49,835 nt of DNA from positions 1 through 49,835 of IMG/VR virus record IMGVR_UViG_3300045996_000554; one strand, written 5' to 3'. Positions 1 to 48,271 of this stretch are shown in pieces; positions within the stretch are counted from its first letter, which is position 1, and every line of letters starts with the position of its first letter. Source of the stretch: a virus. The notes beneath the pieces are model-generated. The model was given only the letters and a program-made list of their open reading frames with translations. It did not search any database and had not been told where the DNA came from. Position numbers and translations under genes: made by a program.

Positions 1-127
1 GGGGACAGAACTCAGGGAAGAAAAACCGCATCACAGCGTTTTTGTGAAACTGCTGCTTGATAAACGCAAACTGCTTCTCAATCGTCTCCTGAGAAGCGTG
101 CATCAGCAGCATGGTGATATCCGGGTA
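1..127. repeat. Left copy of the 127-bp terminal direct repeat
   Basis: Bases 1-127 are identical to 49709-49835. The repeat lies inside terL and the reading frame is continuous when the copies are merged. The length of 127 is a common assembler k-mer, so this is most likely the overlap of a circular assembly graph (circular or circularly permuted molecule) and not a biological terminal repeat. Confidence 0.95.
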
Positions 128-460
128 GTTCAAGATCCACTGGATGCTGTGGGCCATGACGTTAACCGACGACTTGTACCACGACCGTGGGGCCAGAATC
201 AGATTCTTCTTCCGATACGCCGACATCTCAATCGGGTCTTCATACTTGGGCGTGTAGACGAACCGGCCCAACGTCTCATCCCACCGGTCCCAGCCCTGGT
301 GCCCGTCAAACTGCTGCAACTTCCGCATGAATGTACCGTGGACTTCCTCGTTCACCCGTGTCATACCCAGGACGTTATGGCACAGCCACATGAGGTCCGT
401 ACGGGCTTTGTGCCGGCCCATTCTGATGTACTCGCGAAGTTGTTCCTGGTCTAATGTCAC
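1..460 (-). CDS. terL: Terminase large subunit, N-terminal part (continues at 49708)
   Basis: This is the first ~153 codons of the packaging ATPase. The rest lies at 48390-49708 because the circular map was opened inside the gene; 460 + 1319 nt gives exactly 593 codons. A Walker A-like segment, LAPRSWYKSS, sits near residues 87-96. It keeps the Lys and Ser but lacks the usual P-loop glycines. The chosen start is GTG at 460, directly after an in-frame TAG. It has no good ribosome site and lies only 8 nt after a TACCCT -10-like box, so it may be leaderless. An ATG at 421 is the alternative. TerL assembles on the portal, pumps DNA into the prohead and cuts the concatemer. Confidence 0.9.
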   Translation of the reverse strand, partial: MTLDQEQLREYIRMGRHKARTDLMWLCHNVLGMTRVNEEVHGTFMRKLQQFDGHQGWDRWDETLGRFVYTPKYEDPIEMSAYRKKNLILAPRSWYKSSVNVMAHSIQWILNYPDITMLLMHASQETIEKQFAFIKQQFHKNAVMRFFFPEFCP

Positions 461-838: not shown

Positions 839-871
839 GGTGCGGTCGTAGTCCACCGCACGGAGGATCGG

Positions 872-1444
872 ATGAAGCTGTTATTGCTGCCGTTACTGTC
901 CGTTGGGCTACAGGCCACAACATACATGTGGACCGTGGATGCCTGGAATCTCGGGACGCAGGTGGAGCGCCGTTACGGGCAAATCGCTGTGCCGACCCGG
1001 CACTCGATATGGTTGGAGGGGTCCGGTGCCACGACTGTTTGGCTGGAGTCTCTCGACGGGATGCACTCCTCTGCCCCCATCCAGATGCGGGAAGCAATCG
1101 CTCAGGTGCACCGGGCCGGGACCACGACCGAGCTCCCCGTGCTGATCGCGTTCTTCGACATCACGCCCGCGCAGAGCGCCTTGCTGTATTCGAACCTGAC
1201 CACGCGACTCGTGGCCGACACGGTAGGCGAGATCACGGACGTTCGCACATTCGCGGTTCGCCATCAGTTCGCCGCGGATAGCTGGCTCGGCGTGTCTGCT
1301 GCCAGTGTGACGGCGTATTCTCCGCCACTCCAGCAACAAAGTGTGTCGCTGTTCACGATTGATACGCCAGAGCCATCGAGTTTGTGGCTGATCGCCCCGG
1401 CGTTGTTGTGGTTATCGTACCGCCAGAGACCGCACCGGGCCTGA
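872..1444 (+). CDS. Secreted protein with C-terminal PEP-CTERM sorting signal, 190 aa
   Basis: Start ATG at 872 follows GGAGG. Residues 1-16 (MKLLLLPLLSVGLQA) form a Sec signal peptide. The middle is a cysteine-free, polar, beta-rich domain with no family I recognise. The C-terminus has the full PEP-CTERM layout: PEPSS at 166-170, a hydrophobic span LWLIAPALLWLSY (171-183) and a basic tail RQRPHR. Such tails are recognised by exosortases in exopolysaccharide-making Gram-negative bacteria. No exosortase is visible in the window, so the host would have to supply it. Its 3' end overlaps the convergent 1412 gene by 33 bp. The orientation, opposite to the late genes, suggests a moron expressed on its own, perhaps in lysogeny. 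Confidence 0.8.
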   Translation: MKLLLLPLLSVGLQATTYMWTVDAWNLGTQVERRYGQIAVPTRHSIWLEGSGATTVWLESLDGMHSSAPIQMREAIAQVHRAGTTTELPVLIAFFDITPAQSALLYSNLTTRLVADTVGEITDVRTFAVRHQFAADSWLGVSAASVTAYSPPLQQQSVSLFTIDTPEPSSLWLIAPALLWLSYRQRPHRA

Positions 1445-4400
1445 GCCGTACCTGTAGTACACGACATCTCCCTTGTTGGCCGTGAACGACGCCACGCCAC
1501 CGGAGGATGCTTCCGTATCCCCGCCCGAGATCGTGTCCGCGGCGCGGCTGTACGAGGTTCCCCATGTCACATCTTCCGCCGTGGTGCGGCTGATCGTCTG
1601 CGTGCCGGTCTGCGCTGCCAGCGTCGTGAACGAGCCGGTCTGTTGGTCGCCCCCGCACGAGAGGCGGTAGTAGTGCAGCGTCTCTGGATCGAGCGGCTCA
1701 GACTGGCCAACGATGATCGTGCGTTGGGCTCCCCTTCGCACGTAGCCGTCGTAGGCATCGGACTCGTGGCCGTAGTAGGTCGAGATATCCGACCCTTCGC
1801 CCACATACCCAAGCGTGTAACTGCCGTCCGTCGGGTCTTCCGTCGCAGTCTCGTCCCTGAAGTCTGGTCGTTCACTCACCTCCAACACGCACGGGATGTG
1901 CGCGATCGGCTGAGTCAGGGCGTAGCTGAAATGCACGAGCGTGTCTGTTGGCGTTACCTTCAAGGCAAGGATGCGGGGGATCTGTGACATATCGGCCCCG
2001 TAGTCGGCCCCGTCAGTGCCGGTGCGCTTGAACGCCGAGGTATTGTGGACGGCGTACTTCCCGCTGGCGTAGTCACGGAACAGAGCGTTGTAATGCGAAG
2101 CATCTGGGGTGAACGCGGCATTACTTGACCCCAGATTGTACACGCCCGTTGCTCGTGTCTGAGCGGCGTTCTCGTCGTCGTTGGGATAACTGCTGATTGC
2201 TGCCCCTGCGAAGATGTTCTTCCCCCACTGAGCCGACGGACATTCCGTCGCGCCCTGCGATCCACCACAGTAGTCTCTCAACACGCCAGCGTAATGCGTC
2301 GTTTGGTAGCCCCTCGCAGACCCAGAAGATGTCTTGGTGATGAAATTATTCCTGAACACAACGTCGCCAAGGTTCGTTTTTTCATTCGATGTCGAAGTGG
2401 ATACATTACTTGCACCCAGATCAATGAATGGCCCCCACAGCGTATTTGCCACAATGGCCGTATTGTGCTCGATGATGGTATCAGGCGGCGGACCAATCAT
2501 CCAGAACGGCGTACTGGAGCTTGTATTCTGCGTACCTACTGAACTCGCCCACGCCGCCTGATCCTGCTGGATGAAATTATGGTAGAACTTGAGATCGCCG
2601 ACGAATCGCGTGTTGCTCTGATCTGACCCAATCTGAATGCCCAGCGCAGAGTTCACATTCCTGATCCAGTTCCGCGAGAAGTCCAGGCGGAATGTTCGCC
2701 CTGATCGGCACAGGCGCGTCACCGGGTCAGCACCGTACATGAACGGAAGCGTCACCGGAGAACCGCCAGTGGGGACTGCCGATTCGAGTGTGAGTTGCGT
2801 GGCTGAGTCGAACAGAGCAATCTGGTAGAATACGCCGTCAATCCTGATGACTTCACTGGTGGTATCCTGCCAGTACATTGTCGTCCCAGTACCTTCACTG
2901 GTGATATCAATCAACCCTGTATCGTCAGGTGTGGTCGATACCAGCAACGTCGTCAGGCTGTCGCTGATTTTCGTCACAGTCCTCGCGTAGTACAGCGTTG
3001 ATGTATCCAGCCCGCCTGGCAGACTCGATCCAAAGAATCCGACCCTCATACCTGCTTTCGGAGAGCCATAGCCACTATTAATCGAGATCAGGTTAGTTGA
3101 CGTATTCACCGCCGTGACCGTTCGTACCGGCTTCACTGCCCACATACGACCAGGGAAATCTCCCGTGTTCGCGGTGACCGTCAGTCCGTCGGCAGATACG
3201 TCCGCAGTTCCCTCCATCGACTCCACGCAGCCGTTTGAGTAGTTTGGATAGATGCTATCCGGCGCGGCCTTGATATTGATCGACTGAGCTTGAGTCTGGT
3301 TCCAGTGGTGCTCGAAGACGTTATGCCTGATGGTGACATCCTCCGCGCCCTTCAACTCGAGCAGGTTCGCAATATTAACACTATCCTGGTCCCAGTACTT
3401 CCACCGCACGGGGCGTGGATTCGTGGTCCCGTTGAGGTCGCCCTCGTCAACGGTACAGCCGACCACGGTACAGGACGAGAAGTCAGGCTCCGTGTCGCCA
3501 AGCAACCCGGCTCGAATCGCAACATACTGATCTGACCCTTCGGCGCTTGTGGCAAGCACGGCTCGTCCCTTGAAGATCATTACATCGGCGTCGGTCTTCA
3601 TGAGATCCCATCGTCGCGTGCGGCCCCACAGGGGGTAGTGTGATACGTAGTTGTACCTCACGAAAATGTCCGACGGGAAGTCTGGTGTGTGCTGTGCAAC
3701 CCCGCCCCAGAACAGGTTTTCCGCCACGGGGGCCATCAACGAATTGTTCTCGATGTAGGTGCCGCTACCTCCCGCCGCTGCCAGTATCTGCTGCCCCTGC
3801 TGTCCTGACATGTACCCCTGCTGGAGCCATGAGTTCTTCACGGTCTGCTCGTTGCCATTCAGCCCAATCTCACGCACGATGCGACTCCAGCCGTTGTTCA
3901 GCGAGATGATCTGATTAATCGTGATGTCTGAAGCAAGCTGTGTTGCATCTGCCGGGTAGGAGAAATACATCGTCGGCTCGGTGTAGGTACCGTCGCCCAA
4001 CGCAGTGCTAAACGTAAACGTGGTATTAGTCGCTCCCGTGAGAGTCTGGACGCCGTTCAGAGCCGTGGTCGTGCGGAATCCTCTGAGGTTGATCTTGTCG
4101 TCGGTCTTAAAATCGACTCCTGAGATTGCCGAGTGCGTGACCGTTGCTACTCCGCCAGATACCACGATGGATGTGAATTGTTCAGTAGATTGACCAATCG
4201 TAAGTGCCGCCTGGGAAAAGGAATCCCCGCTGTATCCGACGGAGATATACCCGACTGCCGGCGCTGTGTCGCTCCCACCAGCGATGTTTGCCACCGAGAG
4301 GTTCTGGATAAAACCTAATCCGCGAATCTCCCAGTTTGACGCGGGTAATCCACCGGGGCTACTTGACCGACCATACGGAACATTGGCGAAATGGAACATC

Positions 4401-4795
4401 GGCCCCGTTCCGCCCGTCAACGTGAACTTCGGCACAAGTGGCCAGTACATCGGGGTGATGCGTGTTCCATCGGGGGGCAGTTTCGCGTGCTCCGTCGTGG
4501 TGATGATATTCTTATTGGTCCCTGCCGGGAAGTCAATCATGAATCCCGGCGTGGCCTCTGAGTGAGACGCGGCGTACTCGCACGAGGGATGGATCGCGAT
4601 GGTGTTGCCGCCTGCCGCCTGTCCCCGCGTGGCGTCGATAGCTGCCTGTAACTCAGCCTGGACAAGCCCTGCGGAACAAGTCACCGTGATCGTTGCAGGG
4701 TAGGACGGACAAGCGGAACCAGTCCATGAGCCGGTCGAGCACGACACCCCGCCGTAGACGACACTGCAAGACAAGAGAGCAATAAGCCAGCGCAC
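1412..4795 (-). CDS. Large secreted-type beta-helix protein with C-terminal FN3-like region, 1127 aa
   Basis: GTG at 4795 is preferred: it overlaps the previous stop (TAGTG), has GGGGG 7 nt upstream, and puts a signal peptide (MRWLIALLSCSVVYGG) at the N-terminus. A GTG at 4816 would bury it. The body has repeated turns such as IRHNVFEHHW, LKFYHNFIQQ and VVFRNNFITK, typical of right-handed parallel beta-helices. Near residues 960-1085 there is an FN3-like segment (PRILALKVTPTDTLVHFSY to YYRLSCGG). Such folds serve as tail spikes or polysaccharide-binding/degrading enzymes. The signal peptide is unexpected for a virion part assembled in the cytoplasm. Confidence 0.8.
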   Translation of the reverse strand: MRWLIALLSCSVVYGGVSCSTGSWTGSACPSYPATITVTCSAGLVQAELQAAIDATRGQAAGGNTIAIHPSCEYAASHSEATPGFMIDFPAGTNKNIITTTEHAKLPPDGTRITPMYWPLVPKFTLTGGTGPMFHFANVPYGRSSSPGGLPASNWEIRGLGFIQNLSVANIAGGSDTAPAVGYISVGYSGDSFSQAALTIGQSTEQFTSIVVSGGVATVTHSAISGVDFKTDDKINLRGFRTTTALNGVQTLTGATNTTFTFSTALGDGTYTEPTMYFSYPADATQLASDITINQIISLNNGWSRIVREIGLNGNEQTVKNSWLQQGYMSGQQGQQILAAAGGSGTYIENNSLMAPVAENLFWGGVAQHTPDFPSDIFVRYNYVSHYPLWGRTRRWDLMKTDADVMIFKGRAVLATSAEGSDQYVAIRAGLLGDTEPDFSSCTVVGCTVDEGDLNGTTNPRPVRWKYWDQDSVNIANLLELKGAEDVTIRHNVFEHHWNQTQAQSINIKAAPDSIYPNYSNGCVESMEGTADVSADGLTVTANTGDFPGRMWAVKPVRTVTAVNTSTNLISINSGYGSPKAGMRVGFFGSSLPGGLDTSTLYYARTVTKISDSLTTLLVSTTPDDTGLIDITSEGTGTTMYWQDTTSEVIRIDGVFYQIALFDSATQLTLESAVPTGGSPVTLPFMYGADPVTRLCRSGRTFRLDFSRNWIRNVNSALGIQIGSDQSNTRFVGDLKFYHNFIQQDQAAWASSVGTQNTSSSTPFWMIGPPPDTIIEHNTAIVANTLWGPFIDLGASNVSTSTSNEKTNLGDVVFRNNFITKTSSGSARGYQTTHYAGVLRDYCGGSQGATECPSAQWGKNIFAGAAISSYPNDDENAAQTRATGVYNLGSSNAAFTPDASHYNALFRDYASGKYAVHNTSAFKRTGTDGADYGADMSQIPRILALKVTPTDTLVHFSYALTQPIAHIPCVLEVSERPDFRDETATEDPTDGSYTLGYVGEGSDISTYYGHESDAYDGYVRRGAQRTIIVGQSEPLDPETLHYYRLSCGGDQQTGSFTTLAAQTGTQTISRTTAEDVTWGTSYSRAADTISGGDTEASSGGVASFTANKGDVVYYRYGSGPVRSLAVR

Positions 4796-5937
4796 TAGAG
4801 CACCCCCTGCGTCCACAGGCTCGTGGCGCTATCCCAGATCAGTGTCATGAATCGCCCCGCCGGAACCGCGACGGTAGCTGAGGAGAGCTTCAGATTCTCG
4901 GATGCGCCGGACGTCAGCGTGATATCGTTCGCGCCAACATTTTGCAAAATGCACATCTGCCCATCAGACGCCGAGTCCGCTATCGTCGGTGTTGTCGTCA
5001 CGGTCACCGGAGACGCTGCCGTAATCGCGATGCGAGTTGCGTTGCAGACGATAGTATCGCTTGCCGTCAGGGTCTGAGACGCGGTGGCCGGGAACGAGTT
5101 GATCCCCGACAACGCATTGTCGCCCGCCTGAATGGCCACAATATCCTCGTCCACCGATATCTCGTTGTCATCGCCCACCGTCGCGATGATGATTGCGGTC
5201 CCTTCCGATAGCGTGATGGTCGATCCTGTGCCGCACGGCCCACTCGTGCCATCCACGAGCACGCAGTCGGTCGCTGTACCCGAAACCTTCGCTACGTCCC
5301 CGGACGAGTTTACCGCTATGGCTCCAGCCGCCCCGTTCGCTACCAGCGGCATAGTGATCAGGCCGCTTTGATTGACCAGAAGCAAGTTTGTGAACGATCC
5401 AGCGGCCTCTCGCCGCACTCGCAGCACGGAATTGGCGTTGTCCAAAATATCGAGATCGATCGCCCCCGGCTTGGTCGCGTGAGTCGAGCCGTACCCCCGG
5501 AACGTGCCGCCGTTAGCGGATGACTGACCGCCGTACACAGCGACGCTTTGAGACGTTAGCGTGTGATAGATGCCACCCTCCCCGGACTGCGTGAAGCCAA
5601 AGTAGCCTGTGTCGTACAGAATATTGGTGGTCGTCAGCACCTTACCTGTTGTGTCGTCGTAGATAACCACGGTATCTGCCGTAGCCGAAGCGGGGCCGGT
5701 TACATCACCACCACCGCCACTAAGCAGCGTCCACGTATCCGTTGCTGTGCAGCCGTATGCGTTCTGGCCCGCCGTGGCATCGGTGACGAAAAACAACTCA
5801 CCGACTCGGCATGTTGCGGGCAGTTCAGCCAGTTCGCCTGTGGGCAACCCCACCGAGCCCGTAGGTCCAGCCTTCACGGACGGGCCGGCAGCGTACAGCC
5901 CCGCCGCAAGGACGAGGGACAGGATTAGTTTGTGCAT
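4795..5937 (-). CDS. Signal-peptide-bearing fibre-like protein, 380 aa
   Basis: ATG at 5937 follows AAGGAG at good spacing and opens with MHKLILSLVLAAGLYA, a signal peptide; a longer frame to 6033 is probably not translated. The mature part is Gly/Ser/Thr-rich with GGGGDVTGPASA, a segment common in phage fibre and collar proteins, and a beta-rich C-terminal region (DITLTSGASENLKL then RFMTLIWDSATSLW). This resembles C-terminal fibre domains, but I cannot name a function. It lies 20 nt after the stop of the 9407 gene and its stop overlaps the start of the 4795 gene. Confidence 0.75.
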   Translation of the reverse strand: MHKLILSLVLAAGLYAAGPSVKAGPTGSVGLPTGELAELPATCRVGELFFVTDATAGQNAYGCTATDTWTLLSGGGGDVTGPASATADTVVIYDDTTGKVLTTTNILYDTGYFGFTQSGEGGIYHTLTSQSVAVYGGQSSANGGTFRGYGSTHATKPGAIDLDILDNANSVLRVRREAAGSFTNLLLVNQSGLITMPLVANGAAGAIAVNSSGDVAKVSGTATDCVLVDGTSGPCGTGSTITLSEGTAIIIATVGDDNEISVDEDIVAIQAGDNALSGINSFPATASQTLTASDTIVCNATRIAITAASPVTVTTTPTIADSASDGQMCILQNVGANDITLTSGASENLKLSSATVAVPAGRFMTLIWDSATSLWTQGVL

Positions 5938-5957
5938 TGGTAATCTCCTTGTATGTT

Positions 5958-8900
5958 TCATTGCCTGCCGCCTGTGATGCGGCCTCCGGTGTGGCGGTGT
6001 GAGTGCGCCTGTGGTGCCGCAGACCCTGCGCACGAATAAGCGCCGATGTCCACTCCGCCCTCTCCAGCGCCACAGAGCGGTGAACCGGCCTGCGGTATTA
6101 GCCCGTCGTCAGCGGTGAACGGTAACCCGTCTGCTCCAAGCACGTCGCTGATGTTCGCGAACCGGGGATCACCACCATTGACGCCATGCGCCTCATCCCC
6201 GGCAAAACCCGCCTTGGCTGCGAATCCATCCGCGCCAGACGCGGCAACGAAGTTGTAGTCCGGGGTTGCGTACAGCGGGTTGACGTTGTACCAGCCATAT
6301 TCCGGTATATCCCCGACGCCGACGAAAGCGTTGTTCTTTACAGTGCTCTCCTCTGGAGCGCCGTGCAGAGAGTCGTCCATGATGAAAGCATCTGCCGACT
6401 CCACTGCCGTGTTGACGAACGTGTTGTTGAGGACATGCGTCTGCGGGTAGTGGAGAGCGCCGTGTCCTTCTACGCCGACGAACACGTTACGGCGGAATGT
6501 CATCCCGATGCCGTAGGGAGTCTCGCCAAGCCACTCCACTTGCGCCATCGAGTTATCTATGTCTTTGATTATGTTGTACTCAAACAGATTGTCATTGACC
6601 GCGATCACCGAGGTTGCGGTGCTGTAAACGAACTGTGCATACATATCCCATGTGCCAGTTCCGGGTGCGTGCGGAATCTCTGGATCGGGTGGGGAAAAGC
6701 CCTCCCATCGCGGCGAGTCGCGAAATACGTTGTACTGGAATGTGTTGTTGCTGCCAGACAGCGTGATAAGCCGCCATCCGTGCATGTCGATCAACTCATT
6801 CCGTTCGATCAGCGTGTTGGACCCGGCGATAGTCAGGATTCCCAGCCCTGCCAGATTACTCATCCTGTTGTTCGCGACCGTGCATCCACTCGGTCCGACT
6901 CCACCAGACATACTGAAGTGAACACCCGTCACGCCACCCTTGTCTGATCGCGTGACATAGAGTGTGGACTCAACCGGGCCTTCGGTCACCATCTCCCAGT
7001 TCGCCACTCCGGTGTCTGTGTCAGTGACAGTCAGAACAGTGTCGGTTACCGCAGTCACATCTTTTATCGTGTCGTGGTTGAGGTGCTGCGCGTTGAAGTC
7101 GCTGGTGACGTAAATCTTGACTCCCGGCACAAAGCCTGCCGCTATGAAGCCGCCCGCTGCATTCGTGATCGTGTGGGTGGTCGCGTCGAAGTAGTAGCTG
7201 GACGAGTAGAGCCAAATGCCGTCCCTGATCACATTGCCTACCACCTTGCAATTGCTGCCAGTCGCCTCGACAGAGACATGGCCCATACTCAGGCCAACAT
7301 CGTATTTCGTGATGTCGAAGCCATCGACCGTGACGTTCTGCCTGCGGATACGGAATCCCTTGGCGGTTGATCTTTCGGCCTCCTGCGTAGCTGAACTGTT
7401 CGCCTTATAGACCGCAGCAATGGTCAGCAGTCCGGTCCCTGTGGTCGGTGTCGCGACGAACTCCGGGTAATTACCGGGGTACACCCAACAGGTATCACCA
7501 GCCTGTGCTGCCGTCACGCAGGCCTGAATAGTCGTATAGTCCCCGGTTCCATCCGTCTTGACCGTGCGGACAGTACCACCCGCCGCGGCGCCGAACGTCG
7601 CAAACTGGTTCGCGCCGCTGATCGTCACGTCGATAGACGCAGGACTGAACGTAACGCCAGCCTTGGTAGGAGTGACCGTATATGTGCCGTCTGCCAGACC
7701 GGAGATGCTGAAATCACCCGAGCCATCCGCCGTAGTTGCAGCCGAGGCAGTTCCGGTGATCGCTACATCCGCACCACTTCCGGTCACCGTCAGCCTGCCC
7801 GATACGGTCCACGTCACCACCGGAGTAGCGCCGCAGTCGTAAGCCCCGATGTACGTGCCGCTCTCGCCGCCCGTACAGAGTGGAGAGTCGGCCAGCGGCC
7901 TGAATCCGTCATCCGCAGTAAAAGGCAGGCCATCGGCCCCAAGCGGATTACTGATATTCGCCAGCAACGGATCGCCGCCGTTGATCCCGCCGAGACTACA
8001 CGACGCCTCGCAGAAGTTACTGGGGGTAGATGTAGCCCCGCAATTACACCCACTGGACTTCTTGGTCGGGAAGCCAGCCGACGAAGCACCGCCGACATAG
8101 TTGTGATGCGCGGAGAATGTCGTCTTTAGCAGCGTTTCCAGCGCGACGGTCTGCGCTACCACGTCGTAAACCGCGCTCTTGTACGCAGCATACGCGGCGT
8201 CCAGCGTCATGTCGTCCGCGCTCGTCAATGCTCTGGCAGCGGCCGTGATGTACGTATTCAGCAGGTATCCATTGTTCTTCAGATCGGTCGCAATGCCCGT
8301 AGCGATTGGACAGGTCGTGATGCTGCAACTAGCGAATGGAGTCTCTCCCGTCACCAGCATCGCGAAGGCTTCGGCCAGGATTCTGCCGTCGCTCACGCTG
8401 TAGAAGCCCCGCGTGTCGTTCGTGGTGTTAGGCGTCGTTCCCCCGGCGAGAAACACGTTGTTGCGGAACGTCATGTTGTTGCCGACGCCGCGAGTCAGAG
8501 ATGCTCCTATGGCATGGCCCGTGCCGTTGTACCCGAGCCGGTAGAAGGTATTATTCTCGAACGTCATGAACGGCACGGACACGTTACAGTTATCCGGGAC
8601 ATTCATAATCACGTTTCGGCGGAACGTGATGTTTTTCATGTTGGAAACGAGCGCCCCGACGCCGTTGACAGAACTATTCATCTGGCACATCTGGCTCGGG
8701 AGTTCACTGATGAAGTTCTCCTCGATCAGCAGATCCTCCACTGGCTCATTGCCAACGCTGTATGCCTGCACAAAGTCAGGGTGGTTTCCAGACAGCGGTG
8801 TGCCGGGGTTTCCCATCACGTTTCGGCGTATCACATGGTTCGTGCCGAACGGCAGGAACAAATCCCACTGTCGGGATTCCGTCAACGTGTTGTTCTCCAC

Positions 8901-9407
8901 CAGATGCCCATCGCCGTGCAGGATGATGTACTCGTAGTTGAGACGCATCAGACTGTTGCCGCGAATGATGCAACTCGCCGCCCCAACGCCGCCCGAGTAG
9001 TTGAAGTCAACCCCCGCCACATGCCCGACCCCGTTATGTTCACGGATGGTGTTGTTCAGGATCTCGGTGTAGTTTGCGGTAGTCCCAATGGCGACATACG
9101 CTGAGTAATCGGTATAATAGTCGGCCATGTCGAACCCATCAACAGTGATGTAAGGGTGCCGGATGTCGAAACCCTTCATCGTGACCGTGCCTTGTGCCAG
9201 AAACGTGAGGCGCAGGTTCGCCGCTGATCCGCCTCTCGTGGTGACGATGCGCTCGTTGTACGTACCGGCAGTCACCAGACAGGTGTCTCCCGGCTGTGCT
9301 GCATCTGCGCAAGCCTGAATGGTCGTGTAATCGCCTCCTGACGGGGCAACCGTGTAGGTCGCAGCATGAATCACCGAGATAGAAAGCAGACATATCAAGA
9401 TTCGCAT
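5958..9407 (-). CDS. Double beta-helix secreted-type protein, 1149 aa
   Basis: Residues 1-15 (MRILICLLSISVIHA) form a signal peptide. Two homologous modules follow. Each opens with a GDYTTIQAC..AAQ.GDTC segment and closes with GADGLPFTADDG..P...SPLC and IGAY.C. Between are beta-helix turns such as ITFRRNVIMNV and MTFRRNVFVGV. The modules are joined near residues 530-605 by a carboxypeptidase-regulatory/Ig-like domain (VSGRLTVTGSGADVAI to TPTKAGVTFSPASIDVTISG), common in bacterial surface proteins. The His/Arg-rich tail HSHRHTGGRITGGRQ is odd. Tail spike or secreted glycan-active protein are both possible. Confidence 0.82.
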   Translation of the reverse strand: MRILICLLSISVIHAATYTVAPSGGDYTTIQACADAAQPGDTCLVTAGTYNERIVTTRGGSAANLRLTFLAQGTVTMKGFDIRHPYITVDGFDMADYYTDYSAYVAIGTTANYTEILNNTIREHNGVGHVAGVDFNYSGGVGAASCIIRGNSLMRLNYEYIILHGDGHLVENNTLTESRQWDLFLPFGTNHVIRRNVMGNPGTPLSGNHPDFVQAYSVGNEPVEDLLIEENFISELPSQMCQMNSSVNGVGALVSNMKNITFRRNVIMNVPDNCNVSVPFMTFENNTFYRLGYNGTGHAIGASLTRGVGNNMTFRNNVFLAGGTTPNTTNDTRGFYSVSDGRILAEAFAMLVTGETPFASCSITTCPIATGIATDLKNNGYLLNTYITAAARALTSADDMTLDAAYAAYKSAVYDVVAQTVALETLLKTTFSAHHNYVGGASSAGFPTKKSSGCNCGATSTPSNFCEASCSLGGINGGDPLLANISNPLGADGLPFTADDGFRPLADSPLCTGGESGTYIGAYDCGATPVVTWTVSGRLTVTGSGADVAITGTASAATTADGSGDFSISGLADGTYTVTPTKAGVTFSPASIDVTISGANQFATFGAAAGGTVRTVKTDGTGDYTTIQACVTAAQAGDTCWVYPGNYPEFVATPTTGTGLLTIAAVYKANSSATQEAERSTAKGFRIRRQNVTVDGFDITKYDVGLSMGHVSVEATGSNCKVVGNVIRDGIWLYSSSYYFDATTHTITNAAGGFIAAGFVPGVKIYVTSDFNAQHLNHDTIKDVTAVTDTVLTVTDTDTGVANWEMVTEGPVESTLYVTRSDKGGVTGVHFSMSGGVGPSGCTVANNRMSNLAGLGILTIAGSNTLIERNELIDMHGWRLITLSGSNNTFQYNVFRDSPRWEGFSPPDPEIPHAPGTGTWDMYAQFVYSTATSVIAVNDNLFEYNIIKDIDNSMAQVEWLGETPYGIGMTFRRNVFVGVEGHGALHYPQTHVLNNTFVNTAVESADAFIMDDSLHGAPEESTVKNNAFVGVGDIPEYGWYNVNPLYATPDYNFVAASGADGFAAKAGFAGDEAHGVNGGDPRFANISDVLGADGLPFTADDGLIPQAGSPLCGAGEGGVDIGAYSCAGSAAPQAHSHRHTGGRITGGRQ

Positions 9408-9417
9408 TCCGTGTTCC

Positions 9418-11895
9418 TCACTGGACGATCACTACACGCTTGCGTGATGCAGACACAGCATACTCGTACGCACCTGCCGCTCCGGTGCCGTCGTTGCGTC
9501 GTGCTACGCCGTCAAGGTCGTACGGCAGGACAGCAGACCCAGACGGTACGAGATTGAGCGCGGGGCTCGATCCGGTCAGGTGGTAGTCGCCGTTGCCGGC
9601 GCCGGTTGAGACACCATCGAATGCAGTTCGGTTCGTGAACGCCAGCCACGTCACTGCATGGCCCGGCGATACCGATGTTGGCTGCGTGGTCGATTGCTCA
9701 TCCAGCGTGGCAGCTATAGGCATCATGTTGCTGTATAAGCCAGTCCACTCGCCCGCGAACGTGAGCGACCCGCCAACGGCTTGCCCTCCTGTTGCCTCTG
9801 CTGCGTCCACGTTCCCGCTAAACCCGACTCCATACTGTGCGGACCAGTTGCCTACGCGACCGGCATTGTACGGCGAGAATACGTCAGATTTGACCGCGAA
9901 TCTCGAGAACACGCTATTTCGTATAGTCCAGGTTGAGCGATACATCGGCGTTGATCCTGTGTCGTTGTATGCATACAGATACCGCTGACCGATGACGGTA
10001 TTATTGAAACTCATCTGGTTGACGATAGACGACACGGTGTTACCACCTGCCGAAACTCCCACCGTGGCAGCGTTGGACGAGTTAAGTTCCAGCAGGTTGC
10101 CCGCGAGGACGCCACCTATTTGTGTCGCCAGTGCTGCCGTGGTGACGAGGAACGAAGTCCCCGTCTGAACATTCATCAGCTTGTTGTAGGCGAAGATATA
10201 GCTCTGATCGACGGTCGAGGAATCATCCGAACTGAGAAACGACAGCCCCGTCGCCCCCGCCGCGCTTGTATGGCTGTTGCCGAGTACGCAGAAGAACCGG
10301 ACGAGATTCGCGAGGTTATCTAGGTTGTTACCCCTGATCAGTGCCGCGTGTGAGCTATTCGAGAACGACGAAAAGCCGCCGTGAAGACAACTCTCCGTCA
10401 CGCCAGCGTTGCACGTCGCATTGGTTGCCACCGTGTTGTGTGTCCAGTACGCGACTCCTCCCGCTGTCCCCGTCAGCGTTGCTGCTGCTGTCGATGTGTT
10501 GAGGAGGGAGTTATTGTGCAGCCAGAACTGCACCCCGCTGGAGAAAAACTCGTTTGTGCCCGTTAACGCCAACGTGACGCCGCTGATCTTCTGTTTGACC
10601 GTGGATGCTCCAGCGCGGTTGCCCGATGACGTGATGCTGCCCAATATCACATTGGAGCGGTCCACGCCGGGGTACGGTGTGATCGTGACCCACTCCGCAT
10701 CCGCCACCGTGCCTGACGATGCAGTGACGGATGTCGTCAGCCCTGTGTAGGCATGAGTTCCGGCCTTCAGATACACAGTTCCGTTCACATCAGAGTGGAC
10801 AGCGGCGTTCGTCGCCACATTGAGCGCCCTTATGTCAATTACCGCGCCCTTGATTGTCAGACAAGGCGAGATGGTCGCCGGATCGGTTCCGTTGGCAGCG
10901 GCGCAGTTGTTCGTATCGCTTCCTGTGGACGCATCGACTACCGCGATAGGAGAGCCATACGTCCCGAGCCGGTCGCACACGTAATGCTGCGGCGCGTAGT
11001 TCGGAGACGGCTGCGTGTTCACGCCGTCTGACGTATCCATCACGGCAGTAGCATCTCCCACCCACGGGTAGGCCGCGAAGTTGACCGTGACGATCTTCCC
11101 CTGAGAGCACGCGCTCACGTCGAGCGTGCCGACATACTCCTGCACTTTGACCGCATCTGCCATGCCCGAGTCGATGGTCATGTCGGTGACCGTGGTGGAT
11201 ACGTTCAGCCCATCAGGGTCAGTCGCCGTGAACTTCATCGCCGCGAGCGGCTTGGCGTCTTTGGCGTGGCGCGAAAAACCAACAGCGCGAACGGTTAGCG
11301 TGCTGCCCGTGATCCTGCTGTAACCGGGCCACGACCACGCAGCGACAGCACGGGCCTTGTCGTACGTGAGTGTCGAGTTGTTCGTGACGCTAACGCCCGT
11401 CGCCGTATTCGTTGGCGTTCCGCCCTGCGTGTAGATCCCGGCACCGACATCACAGGTCAAGGTGTCGCCCTGATACACAAAATCCGAGAGCGCAACCCGC
11501 AACGTCAGCGTCGTGCTCACCAGCGTCTCATCGTTTGGGTAAGGTGGCGTGTAGGCCACGTTGTACACGTTCCGCAGTTGATGCGTGCCGTAGACGGTGC
11601 GATTCGTAGTCCCGAGCGTTCCAGTCGCATCGTATCCGCTGGACGTAACCGTGCAGGTGATCTTCGCCGCTGCCGGGGAGTTGAGCGCCCCGATGCCGAG
11701 CGCATACGTGCCGCCTGTGGACAGATTGTCCACGTCGATCTCTGCGACCCACCCGGTACAGGCCGATGCCGTATTACAGGCGGATTCCGCGTCCGCTACT
11801 CCGGTCGTGGAGCCGACAACGCGAACGGCGAGAATATCCCCAGTCGCGCCGAACGACGCCACAGCCAACAGCAATGCAATCAGGAGTCTGGTCAT
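9418..11895 (-). CDS. Secreted-type beta-helix protein, 825 aa
   Basis: Starts with MTRLLIALLLAVASFGA, a clear signal peptide. The N-terminal third is a beta-sandwich-like region with paired cysteines. From about residue 315 (SPIAVVDASTGSDTNNC) it becomes a parallel beta-helix with Asn-rich turns. It closes with LTGSSPALNLVPSG then DLDGVARRNDGTGAAGAYEY, the standard C-cap of secreted right-handed beta-helix proteins. The ribosome site is weak (GAG before ATAACGATATG). It sits in the same minus-strand run as its neighbours, with gaps of 4-10 nt. Role as spike or secreted enzyme is unresolved. Confidence 0.8.
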   Translation of the reverse strand: MTRLLIALLLAVASFGATGDILAVRVVGSTTGVADAESACNTASACTGWVAEIDVDNLSTGGTYALGIGALNSPAAAKITCTVTSSGYDATGTLGTTNRTVYGTHQLRNVYNVAYTPPYPNDETLVSTTLTLRVALSDFVYQGDTLTCDVGAGIYTQGGTPTNTATGVSVTNNSTLTYDKARAVAAWSWPGYSRITGSTLTVRAVGFSRHAKDAKPLAAMKFTATDPDGLNVSTTVTDMTIDSGMADAVKVQEYVGTLDVSACSQGKIVTVNFAAYPWVGDATAVMDTSDGVNTQPSPNYAPQHYVCDRLGTYGSPIAVVDASTGSDTNNCAAANGTDPATISPCLTIKGAVIDIRALNVATNAAVHSDVNGTVYLKAGTHAYTGLTTSVTASSGTVADAEWVTITPYPGVDRSNVILGSITSSGNRAGASTVKQKISGVTLALTGTNEFFSSGVQFWLHNNSLLNTSTAAATLTGTAGGVAYWTHNTVATNATCNAGVTESCLHGGFSSFSNSSHAALIRGNNLDNLANLVRFFCVLGNSHTSAAGATGLSFLSSDDSSTVDQSYIFAYNKLMNVQTGTSFLVTTAALATQIGGVLAGNLLELNSSNAATVGVSAGGNTVSSIVNQMSFNNTVIGQRYLYAYNDTGSTPMYRSTWTIRNSVFSRFAVKSDVFSPYNAGRVGNWSAQYGVGFSGNVDAAEATGGQAVGGSLTFAGEWTGLYSNMMPIAATLDEQSTTQPTSVSPGHAVTWLAFTNRTAFDGVSTGAGNGDYHLTGSSPALNLVPSGSAVLPYDLDGVARRNDGTGAAGAYEYAVSASRKRVVIVQ

Positions 11896-11899
11896 ATCG

Positions 11900-13117
11900 T
11901 TATCTCGTCAGCGTGAGCACAAGCCGGATGTTCGTTGCTACCCCACCTGCCGCCGTAACGTTGGCGTCTATGGTTCCAGTGCTCGATAGCGTCGGTGTGC
12001 CGTTTAACGTGCCTGATGCAAACGATCCGGTGCCGCATGTCAAGGCACCCGTGAGGATCGAATCAGCCGCTCCGCCAGTTACTATCGGCGTCACGGTGGG
12101 GCTCCCTGCGTTGGCGTAGCACCGCACCGCCGTGATCGTCTCCGTCACACCAAATCCGTTGAAGCACGAGACCGCCTCATCGTCGGTGTCTTGCAGGACG
12201 CTGGACGCGCCCGTACCCCAAATGTGGAGCTCACACATCCGAGTCCGCGCTGTTCCTACTGCGGTCCCAACATAAGACTCCAGAGCGATATTGCCGTCGG
12301 CATCAGGCAGCGCATAACTCCGCGCCGCAGTCGGTCCCGTGAAGGTGACCCACTTGCCAAGCGCGGGATGCTTTACCGTACCGCCGTTCAGGATGTAGGA
12401 CCACAGCCCCGTTGTGCGATCCACATAAGCCGTGAACTCATTCGCGCTACCCGGAGCACTCGGCGCTGCGTCGTCGGTCAGACCCGTGAGATTCCACGGC
12501 GCGGTCCCATCTCCGAGCGTCAACACACCCGTAGCATCCACGGTCATCAGCACCGCATCTGCGTCCGTCTTGATCTGATACCCGCCTGAGCCGTCGTCGC
12601 AGACCTTCGGCCCGTTGGCGTCTTCGTTGATCTGGAAGCAGGTCGCGTCGGTGTGGGTGTCGGTGTTCTGCGTGTGACCGCCACCAACTACCAGCGCCTC
12701 GATCTTGTCCCTCACCGCATCCTTCGTCGGCGCGTTCGTATCCCCGTTCCAGTCCGTGGCGTCATACGCCCCAGCCACGGCAGCACCGCCTCCGGTATTC
12801 ACACCACACTTCACGCCGCCTGTCGGCGCGACCGCAGGAAGGATCGACAGCGTGGCCCCCGTCGTACTCCATGCATCAATAGAGAACGAGTACGTAAGCC
12901 CGCTCGTGTCCTTACATGGCCCAAACACAACGGAATCTTTGTCCGCCACAGGAGTCGTGTAGACCAGCGGGCCTGTGGACTCAGTTGCCAGAATCGTCAG
13001 CACCTGATTGGGCGAACTACCACCCGTTACCGTCGTCCCCCCACCACCCCCCGGATACTGCTGAGTCTGCGCCCCGACCCACGCCACCATCACCAGCAAC
13101 AACAATAATGTCTTCAT
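11900..13117 (-). CDS. Signal-peptide-bearing tail/collar-like protein, 405 aa
   Basis: ATG at 13117 follows GGGGGG and gives MKTLLLLLVMVAWVGA, a signal peptide ending in a VGA-Q site; the frame extends to 13180 without supporting signals. A short Pro/Gly linker (QYPGGGGGTTVTGG) follows. Next comes a beta-rich body with GVLTLGDGTAPWNLTGL and FTAYVDRTTGLWSYILNGG, phrases typical of phage fibre or base proteins. The C-terminal ~90 residues (TITAVRCYANAGSPTVTPIV onward) look like a small beta-sandwich. It leads the five signal-bearing genes. Confidence 0.75.
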   Translation of the reverse strand: MKTLLLLLVMVAWVGAQTQQYPGGGGGTTVTGGSSPNQVLTILATESTGPLVYTTPVADKDSVVFGPCKDTSGLTYSFSIDAWSTTGATLSILPAVAPTGGVKCGVNTGGGAAVAGAYDATDWNGDTNAPTKDAVRDKIEALVVGGGHTQNTDTHTDATCFQINEDANGPKVCDDGSGGYQIKTDADAVLMTVDATGVLTLGDGTAPWNLTGLTDDAAPSAPGSANEFTAYVDRTTGLWSYILNGGTVKHPALGKWVTFTGPTAARSYALPDADGNIALESYVGTAVGTARTRMCELHIWGTGASSVLQDTDDEAVSCFNGFGVTETITAVRCYANAGSPTVTPIVTGGAADSILTGALTCGTGSFASGTLNGTPTLSSTGTIDANVTAAGGVATNIRLVLTLTR

Positions 13118-13176
13118 AGTCCCCCCAAGGAATATGGTCCTGAGTCGGGCTACGCCCTCCCGAGGACCATACGTCG

Positions 13177-13488
13177 TCACCCTGCTACGTATCCGGCCAC
13201 GACTTCGGCCTCCAGAGAGTCAGCCGCCGACGCCACCCAGTTCAAGCCGGCTGTACACTTGATCCCCAGTGGCCAGGACATGATCGTGACTGAGTTGGCC
13301 GGCAGTGAGATGACGGGAACGACGTTACGGGGCGTGGCCGCCTGGTCGATCACTGTCAGTGTTACAGCCCCACCGGTCTTATTCGCCACAGACAACTGGT
13401 ACAACCACGTATCCGTGGTCGTCAGATCAGCCGCTGACGCGGGGACCAAACGTACCCCGCGTGTCAGATACTTCAGTCCCTTCAGCAT
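13177..13488 (-). CDS. Small beta-rich virion-type protein, 103 aa
   Basis: ATG at 13488 follows GAGGT at good spacing. No signal peptide and no membrane span. Sequence such as TWLYQLSVANKTGGAVTLTV suggests a compact beta-sandwich, as in decoration or tail-attachment proteins. It lies 2 nt after the 13769 gene and before the signal-bearing cluster. Family not recognised. Confidence 0.65.
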   Translation of the reverse strand: MLKGLKYLTRGVRLVPASAADLTTTDTWLYQLSVANKTGGAVTLTVIDQAATPRNVVPVISLPANSVTIMSWPLGIKCTAGLNWVASAADSLEAEVVAGYVAG

Positions 13489-23865: not shown

Positions 23866-23890
23866 CCTACGGGGACCCTCTTGATATACT
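23862..23890 (+). promoter_or_regulatory. Sigma70-type promoter of the integrase
   Basis: TTGACC (23862-23867), 17-bp spacer, TATACT (23885-23890). The expected start near 23897 lies at the AGGAGGTGA ribosome site (23898-23906), so the leader is extremely short. The integrase can thus be expressed apart from the early operon. Confidence 0.8.
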
Positions 23891-23907
23891 CTTACCCAGG
23901 AGGTGAC

Positions 23908-25128
23908 ATGCCCCGTAAGCGGGTACAGAACCCAAAGGTACGCCGGGACGGATCGTTCTGGCGCATACGGTACACAGAGGATGTACGGGAAGCGGACGGT
24001 ACCCTCAAAACCGTCCGTAGATCCCAGGCGGTAGGTATAGCCGACGGGCCGGGAGCCATCAAGGTGACTGAGGCCAAGCGACTGGCCGGCGAATTCATGG
24101 CGAAGATCAACGCCGCGGCACAGGTGCCACACTCGGTCATGACCCTGAGGCAGTTTGTCGTCCAGAAGTTCCAGCCGGAAGTCGTATGGCCGATGAAGCA
24201 TTCTGGTAAGAAGCATTACGATTACTGCTTCGGCTTCATCCTGGAAGAACTGGGTGAAGTGGCGTTGAAGGACCTGACGGTCGATGTTATCGGTGGCTTC
24301 ATTCGTAAGCAGAGACAGGATGATGGGTCGGAGTATAGTACCCAGACCTTATCCCATCTGAAAAACGCCGTCTCAGCCATCATCGAACACGCCAAACGGC
24401 TGGGGTATTTCGTCGGGGACAACCCGGCGCGGATGATCCGGCTCCCAGCGATGGAGCGACGGAAGAAGCCGGCACTCAGCTTTGAGCAGTCCCAGACAGT
24501 CCTGGCCCACCTGTCCGACCCGTACCAGACAATGGCCCTGATGTCCATAACCACGTCCTTGAACGTGGCTGAGTTATGTGGGCTGCGGTGGAAAAGAGTC
24601 AACCTCACCGACCAACAGGTCCTGGCCGAAGGCTACGGCGACGAGACCATAGTCATACCCCCGAGGTCGTTTGCTGTAGTAGAGAACTACTATGACGGTC
24701 ACTATGGTGCGGTAAAAACATCAGCCCGTAACCGCATCCAGCCGTTACCCGGCCCGGTCTACGACGGTCTGGTCAGGATCTATAACAGTACAGCCTTTAA
24801 GGGTCCGGACGATCCTGTGTTCTCCTCGTCCACCGGGCGGCCCGTTGATGCCCACAACGCTAACAACAGGATACTGAAGTCGGCTGGTAAAGCCGCCGGC
24901 ATACAGGCGTTGTCGTGGCACTCCTTTAGACGTACCACGGCCACCTTAACCGGTATCCTGGGTATGGCCAAGGCTGACCGGGTAGCACTCATGGGCCACT
25001 CAGACGGAGCCATGACTGACTATTACTCCGATTCTGATATCGAACGTCGGCGTACATATGTGGATGAGTTAGCTGACAAAGTCCGTCCACGTAAGGCTGA
25101 TGTCATCCCGTTCCCCAAAGTGAGCTAA
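23908..25128 (+). CDS. int: Tyrosine integrase, 406 aa
   Basis: ATG at 23908 follows AGGAGGTGA. An N-terminal arm-binding/SAM-like region (~75-190) precedes the catalytic domain. Visible are Lys in KTSARNRI, HxxR in SWHSFRRT, GH in LMGHSDG and the Tyr in TDYYSDSD. The first-arginine block reads TTSLNVAELCGLRW, with Asn where TG.R..EL normally has the catalytic Arg. It would join attP, found 0.6 kb downstream, to a tRNA-Arg gene. Either this is a subfamily using another residue or the enzyme is weakened. Confidence 0.9.
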   Translation: MPRKRVQNPKVRRDGSFWRIRYTEDVREADGTLKTVRRSQAVGIADGPGAIKVTEAKRLAGEFMAKINAAAQVPHSVMTLRQFVVQKFQPEVVWPMKHSGKKHYDYCFGFILEELGEVALKDLTVDVIGGFIRKQRQDDGSEYSTQTLSHLKNAVSAIIEHAKRLGYFVGDNPARMIRLPAMERRKKPALSFEQSQTVLAHLSDPYQTMALMSITTSLNVAELCGLRWKRVNLTDQQVLAEGYGDETIVIPPRSFAVVENYYDGHYGAVKTSARNRIQPLPGPVYDGLVRIYNSTAFKGPDDPVFSSSTGRPVDAHNANNRILKSAGKAAGIQALSWHSFRRTTATLTGILGMAKADRVALMGHSDGAMTDYYSDSDIERRRTYVDELADKVRPRKADVIPFPKVS

Positions 25129-41990: not shown

Positions 41991-41999
41991 CACATCATC

Positions 42000-44319: not shown

Positions 44320-45303
44320 TTAGAGACCCAGCGACGTGGGAGCGTCGATCTTACGCAGCCGGTAGTTGACGGTGTCGAGGATCTTGGCCACAAAGACCAC
44401 GTTGTAGCTGCAAAACGCTCGAATCTTGCCTTCAGGATTCGCGATGGATTTGGCCGCGTTACGTTCAACGTGAACACGGAACTGGGTCTGATCCTGATCT
44501 TTGGTACGAGTCGGGCCGCGACCGGCGAGGTCGATAGCCGCCACACCCTCCTGACCGAAGAAGTAGCAACGGTAGAGGTTCGGCGTACCGGAAGTCACGG
44601 TCACGTCGGTGGCTTCATACACCTGACAGTTGTTGAAGGTCACCAGGGGGCCGTTCTCGGGCAACGACTGGAGCTTGCCGCTCTGCGGGCCGTTCTTGTT
44701 CACATCCATGAACCCGCCAACCTGCGGGTCATGAACCAGATCGTACGAGATGTACGGGTGGACGATGGTCGGGAACATGCCGTTATTGAAGCCTTTGATG
44801 TTCAGACCACGCATCCTGTGACGGATGTTCGCCAGATCCGCGCCCGTGAAGTAGTCTCCCAACAGGGACACGTCGATGGACGCGGCAACGGAGTCGATCT
44901 CGTTCTTGAGGATCGTGTTGAAGGTCAGGCCGGCGCGGTAGCCAAGCTGGTCAGAAGCGACTGCAACGATATCGCCGTCAATGGCCGTATCGACCAACAT
45001 GTCCGACAACGAGGTAAAGTCACTGTACTGAGCCACAGTGGCACTGACCGTGGTCGATGCCGCCATGTTGATCGGCGTACCGACCGTGCCTTCAGACGTG
45101 GTCGAGGTGTTAGCACCCAGGTTGCCGTAACGGTAGAACTGAACCGTCTTGCCGTTCTTCAGCGGCATCACCCGGTTGTCCACACCTACCCAGAAGAGAA
45201 ACTGCTGCCGAAGCGGTTTGAGCGCCGTCCGGTCATAATAGACTGATGCCAGGTGGGTAAACTGGCTAGACGTTGAAAGATTTGCTGCCGGAGCGTAGGC
45301 CAT
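44320..45303 (-). CDS. Major capsid protein, N4-gp56 family-like, 327 aa
   Basis: ATG at 45303 follows GGGAGGG. HK97-fold pattern of the N4-gp56 family: a variable N-terminus, KNGKTVQFYRYGNL, TTSEGTVGTP, VSATVAQYSDFTSLSDML, then FPTIVHPYISYDL and a C-terminal strand FCSYNVVFVAKIL. Preceded by the scaffold gene and followed by a probable decoration protein. It has its own promoter motif, fitting high expression. Confidence 0.85.
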   Translation of the reverse strand: MAYAPAANLSTSSQFTHLASVYYDRTALKPLRQQFLFWVGVDNRVMPLKNGKTVQFYRYGNLGANTSTTSEGTVGTPINMAASTTVSATVAQYSDFTSLSDMLVDTAIDGDIVAVASDQLGYRAGLTFNTILKNEIDSVAASIDVSLLGDYFTGADLANIRHRMRGLNIKGFNNGMFPTIVHPYISYDLVHDPQVGGFMDVNKNGPQSGKLQSLPENGPLVTFNNCQVYEATDVTVTSGTPNLYRCYFFGQEGVAAIDLAGRGPTRTKDQDQTQFRVHVERNAAKSIANPEGKIRAFCSYNVVFVAKILDTVNYRLRKIDAPTSLGL

Positions 45304-46061: not shown

Positions 46062-46305
46062 ATATCTGATCTCCTTCGTCCTTTAGTTCTTCCGCCAGCC
46101 GTAACGGCAGGTTGGATAGCTCGTTGTACATCAACTTCGCCCACTGAAACTCAATCGCGGCCCGGTACAGCTTGTCCTGGTCCGTTGTAGAGGTCAAACG
46201 GCTCTCGGCGTCCTTTATGGCCGGCTTCAGGACCAGATCCAGGACCTTTTGGTACCCTGGGACCGTGGCTAAAGCCGCTATACGCCGTCTTTCCTCCGTG
46301 TCCAT
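46051..46305 (-). CDS. Small helical protein between portal and scaffold, 84 aa
   Basis: MDTEERRRIAALATVPGYQK, predicted all-helical and charged. Its start overlaps the portal stop by one base. Small proteins at this place are common in podovirus head operons; function unknown. Confidence 0.65.
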   Translation of the reverse strand: MDTEERRRIAALATVPGYQKVLDLVLKPAIKDAESRLTSTTDQDKLYRAAIEFQWAKLMYNELSNLPLRLAEELKDEGDQIYGA

Positions 46306-48236
46306 TACTTCTTGGCCTTTTCCTTAGCCTCTGCGGTCTTTTTCTCGCCAATCTTGGTCAACAACGCCTTGACGATCTCCGTGGCAGAGCGTTCCGCCAC
46401 GTCTGTCTGTGCCGATTCCGTCTCCATCCGCTTCGTGGTCAGTTCTGTCTCAGACTTGACACCCATAATCTCCTTACGGGTCTGGGAATCCAGTTGTGCC
46501 TTCTGCCAATCCAGCATCTTGTTCGGATCAGGCTGCATGGACTGTTGCTTTTCTTCCATCGACATAGGCCGGAAGAACTGATACGCCTTGGTGGTACCTG
46601 TCGCGTCGTGCAGGAACCGGTTCCATTCCACGAAGTCCACCGTCATGTTCTGCTGGCCAGCCATCTTAGCTACAACGTCGTTGAACAGAAGCTGTGAGAC
46701 GGGGCCTAAGAACATGGCCAGCCGTTCACGGGCTATCATCCGTGACGCGGCTTCGATGGTGAACTTCACAGGGCCGTCAAAAGTGGCCTTCTGGACCTGC
46801 TGAACGCCTGTACCGTCGTTGATGACAAGCTGCTCCGGGGCAAACTTCTTGATCATGGCTCTCATCTTGTACAGCATCGGCACGATCATGAAGTCTTCGA
46901 CGTTCTTGACGGCAGAAGACAGCCTGTCCGCTACGTTCATACCCTGTTGGGACACGCCTGTGGCCGACCTGTTGGCGTTAGACGGGGTCGGCATACCACT
47001 CTGGGCCATTTCGTTGATACCGGTGCGCTTAGACGCCCCCTGGTGGATGATCATCTCCTCCCTGAGAGCGTCCCCGGTGACCATATCCACCTTGTACAGG
47101 TCAGATTCGTCTATCGAGGTGACGATCTCCTTCATCCCAGGCCGCCATACTTCGGGCCGACCACTCGTCATAGCCCCCTGTTTCTGCTTCCGCGGCGGGT
47201 TCAGGGCCAGGTTGACGTTATCCAAGCGAAGGTTCCGGATACCTTGGGCGTACTTTTGGTCACCTTCAAGGACGTCCGGGAGGCCAATACCGTACGGACG
47301 ACCTTCGACCAACGTAAACGGAGCCTTACAGTAGTTGATGAACCCGTATGGGTTGTCGCCGTTCAGGGCTACCCACTGCCGACCGAGGATCCAGATGAGC
47401 CGTTCCCGCGACGTATAGACCAAAACCTCCACGTCCTGATGAGACGGATCGGTCTCGATCAGGTTGACGTGGGATTCGGTACGTGTAGCCGCGGCTTGTA
47501 CCCGCCGGGACTGATCCCCCACCGTATCCGGGTTCAGCTTGGCCAGGTAGTTCAGGATCTCATCGGACGGGATGTTGATCCCCTCCTGCCCACGCATATC
47601 CGCCAGGTCTTCGACCCGTACCTTGGTCCGTTCTATGACCGCCGGGGACCAGTCTACGCATGGTCCGGGGGTCTTGGGGGACATATACAGGTCACGGATG
47701 TCTACCCATTCGAGGATGGGACGCTTTAGCTGGTGGTCCCAGGAGAGCTTCACAGCCCCGTCGCCGTACTTTTCGGCCTGTTTCACGGACATGCCCAGGT
47801 GGGCTACGGCGGTCAGTTGGGTTTCATCAAACGGGGACTTCAGATAGGCCGCCAAAACGTCCCGCTGTTGTACCGCCTCTGCCGGCGTCGTCCCGCCCTG
47901 AGCTTCGACCTCAAACCACGTCGGGGCGTAGTCGAACAACGCACGCATGATCTTGGGGTACGCGGCCTCGATCTGGTCGTAGACGATGGGTACGGCCAAA
48001 GACGCCCGTTCCGACTTCCTGGCCTCGTCCCAGTACCGTTTGTCCACCACACCGTGGTATAGCCTGTCCGCCGTCTGCCACCGTAGGTCGTGGGACCGTC
48101 TCCCAGCCTCATACTGCCCAAACGTCTGGGTGACCAAGGTCAGAGCTTCAGCGTCCTGTGGCGTCCGCGCGTACAGGTACGGCTGCGTCTCCATGTCTAA
48201 AAGTGGAAGCTGTTCCGGTACCTGTTGTTCGGGCAT
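46305..48236 (-). CDS. Portal (head-to-tail connector) protein, 643 aa
   Basis: Portal features: an N-terminal helical wing with RWQTADRLYHGVVDKRYWDE, a stem/wing core (KYGDGAVKLSWDHQLKRPIL, WVDIRDLYMSPKTPG), a crown-like helical C-terminus and a Lys/Ala-rich tail. Size suits podovirus portals. ATG at 48236 is chosen; GTG at 48257 lies within a 5' hairpin. Dodecameric ring through which TerL packages DNA; followed by the scaffold and capsid genes. Confidence 0.85.
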   Translation of the reverse strand: MPEQQVPEQLPLLDMETQPYLYARTPQDAEALTLVTQTFGQYEAGRRSHDLRWQTADRLYHGVVDKRYWDEARKSERASLAVPIVYDQIEAAYPKIMRALFDYAPTWFEVEAQGGTTPAEAVQQRDVLAAYLKSPFDETQLTAVAHLGMSVKQAEKYGDGAVKLSWDHQLKRPILEWVDIRDLYMSPKTPGPCVDWSPAVIERTKVRVEDLADMRGQEGINIPSDEILNYLAKLNPDTVGDQSRRVQAAATRTESHVNLIETDPSHQDVEVLVYTSRERLIWILGRQWVALNGDNPYGFINYCKAPFTLVEGRPYGIGLPDVLEGDQKYAQGIRNLRLDNVNLALNPPRKQKQGAMTSGRPEVWRPGMKEIVTSIDESDLYKVDMVTGDALREEMIIHQGASKRTGINEMAQSGMPTPSNANRSATGVSQQGMNVADRLSSAVKNVEDFMIVPMLYKMRAMIKKFAPEQLVINDGTGVQQVQKATFDGPVKFTIEAASRMIARERLAMFLGPVSQLLFNDVVAKMAGQQNMTVDFVEWNRFLHDATGTTKAYQFFRPMSMEEKQQSMQPDPNKMLDWQKAQLDSQTRKEIMGVKSETELTTKRMETESAQTDVAERSATEIVKALLTKIGEKKTAEAKEKAKK

Positions 48237-48238
48237 GT

Positions 48239-48271
48239 GTAGGTGGTGACCCTCCACCTACTAGTGTAGCG
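48239..48271 (-). promoter_or_regulatory. Late promoter with 5'-terminal hairpin for the portal operon
   Basis: Minus strand TTCGCTACACTAGTAGGTGG; -10 TACACT at 48263-48268, no clear -35. A perfect 8-bp inverted repeat (48239-48246 with 48254-48261, loop 7 nt) would form the very start of the mRNA, ending 2 nt before the portal ATG. Confidence 0.6.

Follow-up and report, generated by a model that had tools for sequence, protein, structure and literature searches.

The forward strand of positions 872 to 1,444 encodes a protein, P0001, with a signal-like start and, at its extreme C-terminus, a tail resembling a PEP-CTERM sorting signal. The gene lies in a viral contig of 49,835 nucleotides (IMG/VR record IMGVR_UViG_3300045996_000554), the whole of which was analysed and is called the window here; its features are collected in Table 1. 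GC content by codon position in the open reading frame is 0.58/0.50/0.76, which is the coding pattern of the adjoining phage genes, and the antisense reading frames of the region give its mirror image. Because of this third-position GC content and the Shine-Dalgarno-like sequence ahead of the start codon, the reading frame is a real gene. No sigma-70-like promoter was seen on the + strand in a scan of the upstream sequence, and a single minus-strand hairpin is found at 840–861, 5' of the gene. The small hydrophobic protein encoded upstream gave no family match and is likely to be the cassette partner of P0001.

Table 1 Features of the window discussed in the text.
Feature	Position	Strand	Basis or remark
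Large terminase, N-terminal part	2..460	-	Continues at 48390-49820 over the circle joint; 54% identical to sister phage
Small hydrophobic protein, 72 aa	620..838	+	Own GGAGG at 607-611; 33 nt upstream of the P0001 gene
Shine-Dalgarno-like GGAGG	862..866	+	Sequence reading; 5 nt 5' of the P0001 ATG
PEP-CTERM-type secreted protein P0001, 190 aa	872..1444	+	ORF; GC3 0.76; TIGR02595 13 bits whole, 18 bits tail
Sec-type signal sequence MKLLLLPLLSVGLQA of P0001 (predicted)	872..916	+	Script: hydrophobicity and -3/-1 rule
PEP-CTERM-like tail of P0001: PEPSS, 13-residue hydrophobic span, basic RQRPHRA	1367..1441	+	
Variable tail / host-contact module	1412..13488	-	Without homologues in sister phage; meets the PEP-CTERM gene tail to tail
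Tyrosine integrase (phrog_1)	23881..25128	+	
Holin (PF05105)	41592-41993		
Major head protein (phrog_1357)	44320..45303	-	
Portal / head-tail adaptor (phrog_332)	46305..48257	-	
Large terminase, main part (phrog_38)	48390..49820	-	

The N-terminus of P0001, MKLLLLPLLSVGLQA followed directly by TT, was recognised as a predicted Sec signal by a simple script for n-, h- and c-regions, which is not a trained predictor. Residues 166–190 at the C-terminus read PEPSS-LWLIAPALLWLSY-RQRPHRA, in which LWLIAPALLWLSY is a run of 13 hydrophobic residues, a short span with one proline inside. These observations bear out an earlier note on this DNA, which had described a 190-residue protein with a Sec-type start and a C-terminal PEPSS, hydrophobic span and basic tail. 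Between signal and tail there is a further hydrophobic stretch at residues 87–106, with a Kyte-Doolittle peak of 1.39 and a charged residue. The mature region comprises 12.1% Thr, 8.7% Ser and 1.3% Asn, with no Lys, and Cys is absent from the whole protein. An AlphaFold2 model of P0001 alone was uninformative (pLDDT 34), and no credible homologue was found in IMG/VR viral contigs, GTDB species genomes, GenBank phages, plasmids or the PDB.

The earlier reading of the tail as a PEP-CTERM signal was compared with the TIGR02595 profile, with a divided outcome: the isolated 29-residue tail scores 18 bits, over the cut-off of 16, but the whole protein reaches only 13 bits, and by this curated whole-protein cut-off P0001 falls outside TIGR02595. 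Pfam PF07589 gives 13 bits for the whole protein and 16.1 bits for the tail alone, both under its cut-off of 20.7. The TIGR02595 alignment places residues 165–186 on profile positions 1–22 of 24 and leaves four residues to the C-terminus, so that the layout of PEP motif, span and basic cluster sits at the extreme end of the protein (model end within 10 residues of the terminus). The same tail definition was matched by one of 4,789 reading frames taken from all frames of the window and its relatives, that one being P0001, and by three of 957,800 shuffled C-termini, or some 2e-4 for a genome of 75 genes. Haft et al. 2006 (PMC1569441) reported that PEP-CTERM proteins are raised in Thr and Ser and depleted in Cys and basic residues, and that they typically lack detectable homologues. 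The predicted composition of mature P0001 fits this description, with the exception of its low Asn (1.3%). Judged from its sequence, then, P0001 is a formally sub-threshold, orphan case that is built like a PEP-CTERM substrate.

The window is the probably circularly closed genome of an integrase-bearing, podovirus-like phage from an uncultured lineage, and the claim that the gene is phage-encoded holds, as large terminase, portal, head protein and integrase all lie in the same contig. Genes for DNA polymerase, primase/helicase and exonuclease are also present. The tyrosine integrase indicates that the phage is probably temperate. The ends of the window share a 127-base terminal repeat; since 127 is a common assembly k-mer length, it probably reflects the closure of a circular contig and not genuine repeats at the ends of the phage genome. 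The product of 17431–18381 (+) matches phrog_4871, a family of phage ATP-dependent proteases, over the C-terminal half of that family (E 1.3e-80).

A search with a terminase profile found a sister phage, L003 (IMGVR_UViG_3300045996_001341; 46,488 bases, 127-base terminal repeat), whose large terminase is approximately 53% identical to that of the window. Packaging, head, most tail, replication and integrase genes of the two phages pair one to one at approximately 27–66% identity. The block from the start of the terminase to 13488 has no match in L003 and is, by this comparison, a variable, host-contact module. No PEP-CTERM match was found in L003, where the terminase directly adjoins a tail gene; at the matching site the window holds an insert of approximately 950 bp on the opposite strand, comprising two genes, that of the hydrophobic protein (620–838) and the PEP-CTERM gene. 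Because L003 has the same core but no PEP-CTERM gene and a terminase that adjoins the tail module, the PEP-CTERM gene is, on the evidence of gene content, a moron, lying outside the core on a strand of its own, with the terminase on one side and the tail-fibre module on the other. It thus combines absence from a close relative, opposite orientation and a position between conserved operons. The earlier note had proposed looking for the same cassette in related phages, and here the answer is mixed: the nearest sister lacks it, but unrelated phages do have PEP-CTERM genes, as described below.

Several other proteins of these modules are worth recording. In the window, Sec-like starts are found on a row of five large proteins from the tail/host-contact module (1412–13180, -) and on the product of 42000–43220 (-), and those in the module include one with the phage depolymerase C-terminal domain PF25692 and one with a beta-helix domain (PF13229). 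Core head and tail proteins of the window in general lack such starts. The sister phage likewise has Sec-like starts, on unrelated proteins. Within the same variable module, L003 encodes at 3495–4121 a secreted protein of approximately 200 residues whose C-terminus is a type I dockerin domain (PF00404, E 9.8e-11). Where the window phage has a PEP-CTERM tail, the sister's module has this other attachment-type C-terminus. A comparison of this dockerin protein with P0001 revealed no homology.

IMG/VR was scanned with three narrow DNA patterns for canonical PEP-CTERM cores, and 123 loci were checked. At 112 of these there is a reading frame whose C-terminus combines PEP, a hydrophobic span and a basic end, in many cases with a signal-like start, and all 43 sampled proteins, P0001 included, matched TIGR02595 at E ≤ 0.2 (best E 5.9e-07). 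Neighbouring genes include terminases, portals and integrases. When three terminase families were searched and only records with a PEP-CTERM reading frame were retained, at least 43 records were seen to hold a terminase as well; some of the 112 loci for which no terminase was detected may be host DNA within the virus collection. The exosortase family PF09721 was found in none of 100 records searched (99 from the IMG/VR scans), an absence that can be relied on for the longer records and less so for fragments. In L087, L088 and L123 the PEP-CTERM gene lies approximately 3 kb or less from the terminase. Overall, nine of 26 PEP-CTERM genes lie within 4 kb of a terminase, where about six would be expected, and no enrichment is claimed. 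Two further loci that at first seemed to share the arrangement, L095 and L096, lack signal sequences and were set aside.

The phage PEP-CTERM proteins include one family of 45 members and another of 28. Members of the larger (for example L113:3416–4051) are secreted proteins of approximately 210 residues with a canonical tail, VPEPASLALLGVGLLGLGLV-RQRRA, and some are encoded near a terminase. A structure model of this family (pLDDT 76) is all-beta with a C-terminal helix, and gave no confident match to a known fold. In its alignment (A5; L113, L132, L160, L088 and others) a near-identical signal region, MKHALL..AGAMFFHAPAYA, is joined to different bodies, which suggests modular swapping. The body of P0001 is not homologous to either large family, and P0001 was rejected as a member of both; it has a weak match to L129 (30% over 89 columns, tail included). 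Two single records also stand out. L123 carries at 1–519 a PEP-CTERM gene divergent beside terminase genes in a prophage-like record from IMG dataset 2784746777, a number that points to an isolate genome and not a metagenome, and so to a possible culturable model. L098 encodes two different PEP-CTERM proteins on opposite strands (1898–2476 and 4122–4832). Among 50,697 GenBank phages, searched with two family members and the tail from the window, there was no convincing match, and a full-text search of open-licence papers found no report of phage-encoded PEP-CTERM proteins. The strong evidence that phages encode such proteins comes from these other contigs, and extends to P0001 by architecture and not by homology.

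No exosortase was found in the window with the TIGR02602 profile, and the earlier statement that this genome has none therefore stands. The nearest annotated relative of the terminase and portal, at only 24–26% identity, is Tunturiibacter phage Tunturi_3, the closest cultured relative, which infects an acidobacterium and has been described as a podovirus (PMC11924767). This kinship only hints at Acidobacteriota as the host group. A terminase-profile scan of GTDB contigs found no prophage of the window's clade; its sole match was a distant one, L083 (PSRA01000113.1), in the bin of a Bacteroidetes MAG. The large terminase of L083 is 25% and its head protein 28% identical to those of the window phage, and the contig may be a stray viral one. 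As a single distant relative at 25% identity, L083 was not used as a host link to Bacteroidetes. The window holds no tRNA or Rfam match, and so offers no tRNA attachment-site clue to the host.

What might a phage gain from such a protein? Because the parts of a substrate are present, the phage has no exosortase of its own, and the same design is seen at approximately 110 IMG/VR loci with none of 100 records holding an exosortase, the use of a host exosortase is the natural reading and the best explanation of the locus, if an unproven one. We consider it rather probable that P0001 is a moron product handled in this way. The protein would be exported through the inner membrane by its Sec signal, and its hydrophobic tail and basic end would halt transfer; the host exosortase would then recognise the PEP motif and cut there, and the cut protein would be passed to the outer surface or the exopolysaccharide, as with the host's own PEP-CTERM proteins. 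In this scheme the phage would contribute the substrate alone. Haft et al. 2006 (PMC1569441) found that PEP-CTERM sets and EpsH co-occur across genomes. Cleavage by a host exosortase and a surface location of P0001 are what we infer from its architecture. The most likely use would be to alter the cell surface during infection or lysogeny, by receptor masking or a change in the matrix; a role in blocking superinfection is less likely.

The main rival is that P0001 is exported by Sec, retained in the inner membrane by nothing more than a C-terminal anchor, and active on the periplasmic side, for example by blocking the entry of a second phage's DNA, with the PEP motif incidental or vestigial and no exosortase involved. 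An anchored periplasmic protein is a known superinfection-exclusion layout, and the sub-threshold whole-protein scores against TIGR02595 and PF07589 also favour this reading. However, PEPSS with span and basic residues right at the C-terminus is rare by chance (3 of 957,800 shuffles), the composition is mostly that of PEP-CTERM proteins, and other phages have the same layout with stronger TIGR02595 matches, so that we judge plain anchoring unlikely.

Next to be considered is that the gene is host cargo, a PEP-CTERM gene acquired by illegitimate recombination, of no gain to the phage and on its way to loss. The lack of relatives for the body of P0001 and the absence of the gene from L003 both agree with this, as does the abundance and fast evolution of PEP-CTERM proteins in hosts that have them (PMC1569441). 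The open reading frame, coding GC pattern and Shine-Dalgarno sequence speak against it, and the presence of PEP-CTERM proteins in over 100 virus contigs, with a 45-member family kept across contigs, argues for retention; we find the cargo reading improbable. Still harder to credit is a lysis or virion part, either spanin-like or tail-associated, with hydrophobic ends that merely resemble sorting signals. Its appeal is that the gene adjoins that of a small hydrophobic protein and that the adjoining tail proteins also have signal-like starts, but the structural genes are on the other strand from P0001. A protein with no cysteine has no lipobox and is not a unimolecular spanin, which ruled out a spanin, and a holin was rejected as an ordinary one is encoded elsewhere in the window. 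Such a part is very improbable.

Many environmental bacteria that form biofilms sort proteins by exosortase, but little is known of what this sorting is for. If phages time and again bring just the substrate half, they would have put it to use on the outside of the cell, and the purpose becomes testable with small, defined proteins. A surface-remodelling route is also suggested for phages of groups from which hardly any phage has been cultured, and the class would escape isolate-based work, since the GenBank phages searched gave no clear example. We tentatively raise the broader possibility that substrate-only PEP-CTERM genes are common in the phages of exosortase-bearing bacteria and serve to load the host exosortase with phage-made surface proteins that recoat the infected cell. 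This would be a route of envelope takeover not described before and used by unrelated phages, with P0001 a highly diverged example.

Prophage morons that remodel the host surface include superinfection-exclusion lipoproteins and O-antigen modifiers. Like them, the P0001 gene is an extra one, outside the core, on the opposite strand between structural genes, and its predicted action is on the envelope. The known examples differ in that they proceed by lipoprotein, inner-membrane or glycosyltransferase routes; we found no described surface-remodelling prophage moron that uses exosortase sorting. The 45-member phage family shares with P0001 its predicted secretion, PEP-CTERM tail, occurrence in virus contigs and lack of an exosortase in the records searched, and differs in its canonical tail and non-homologous body. 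Compared to the bacterial PEP-CTERM/EpsH substrates (TIGR02595, PF07589; PMC1569441), P0001 comes from a phage genome without an exosortase, scores under the cut-off as a whole protein and is not raised in Asn. It resembles them in its signal-like start, in a PEP motif, span and basic end placed within 25 residues of the C-terminus, and in a Thr/Ser-rich body that has no Cys and no homologues.
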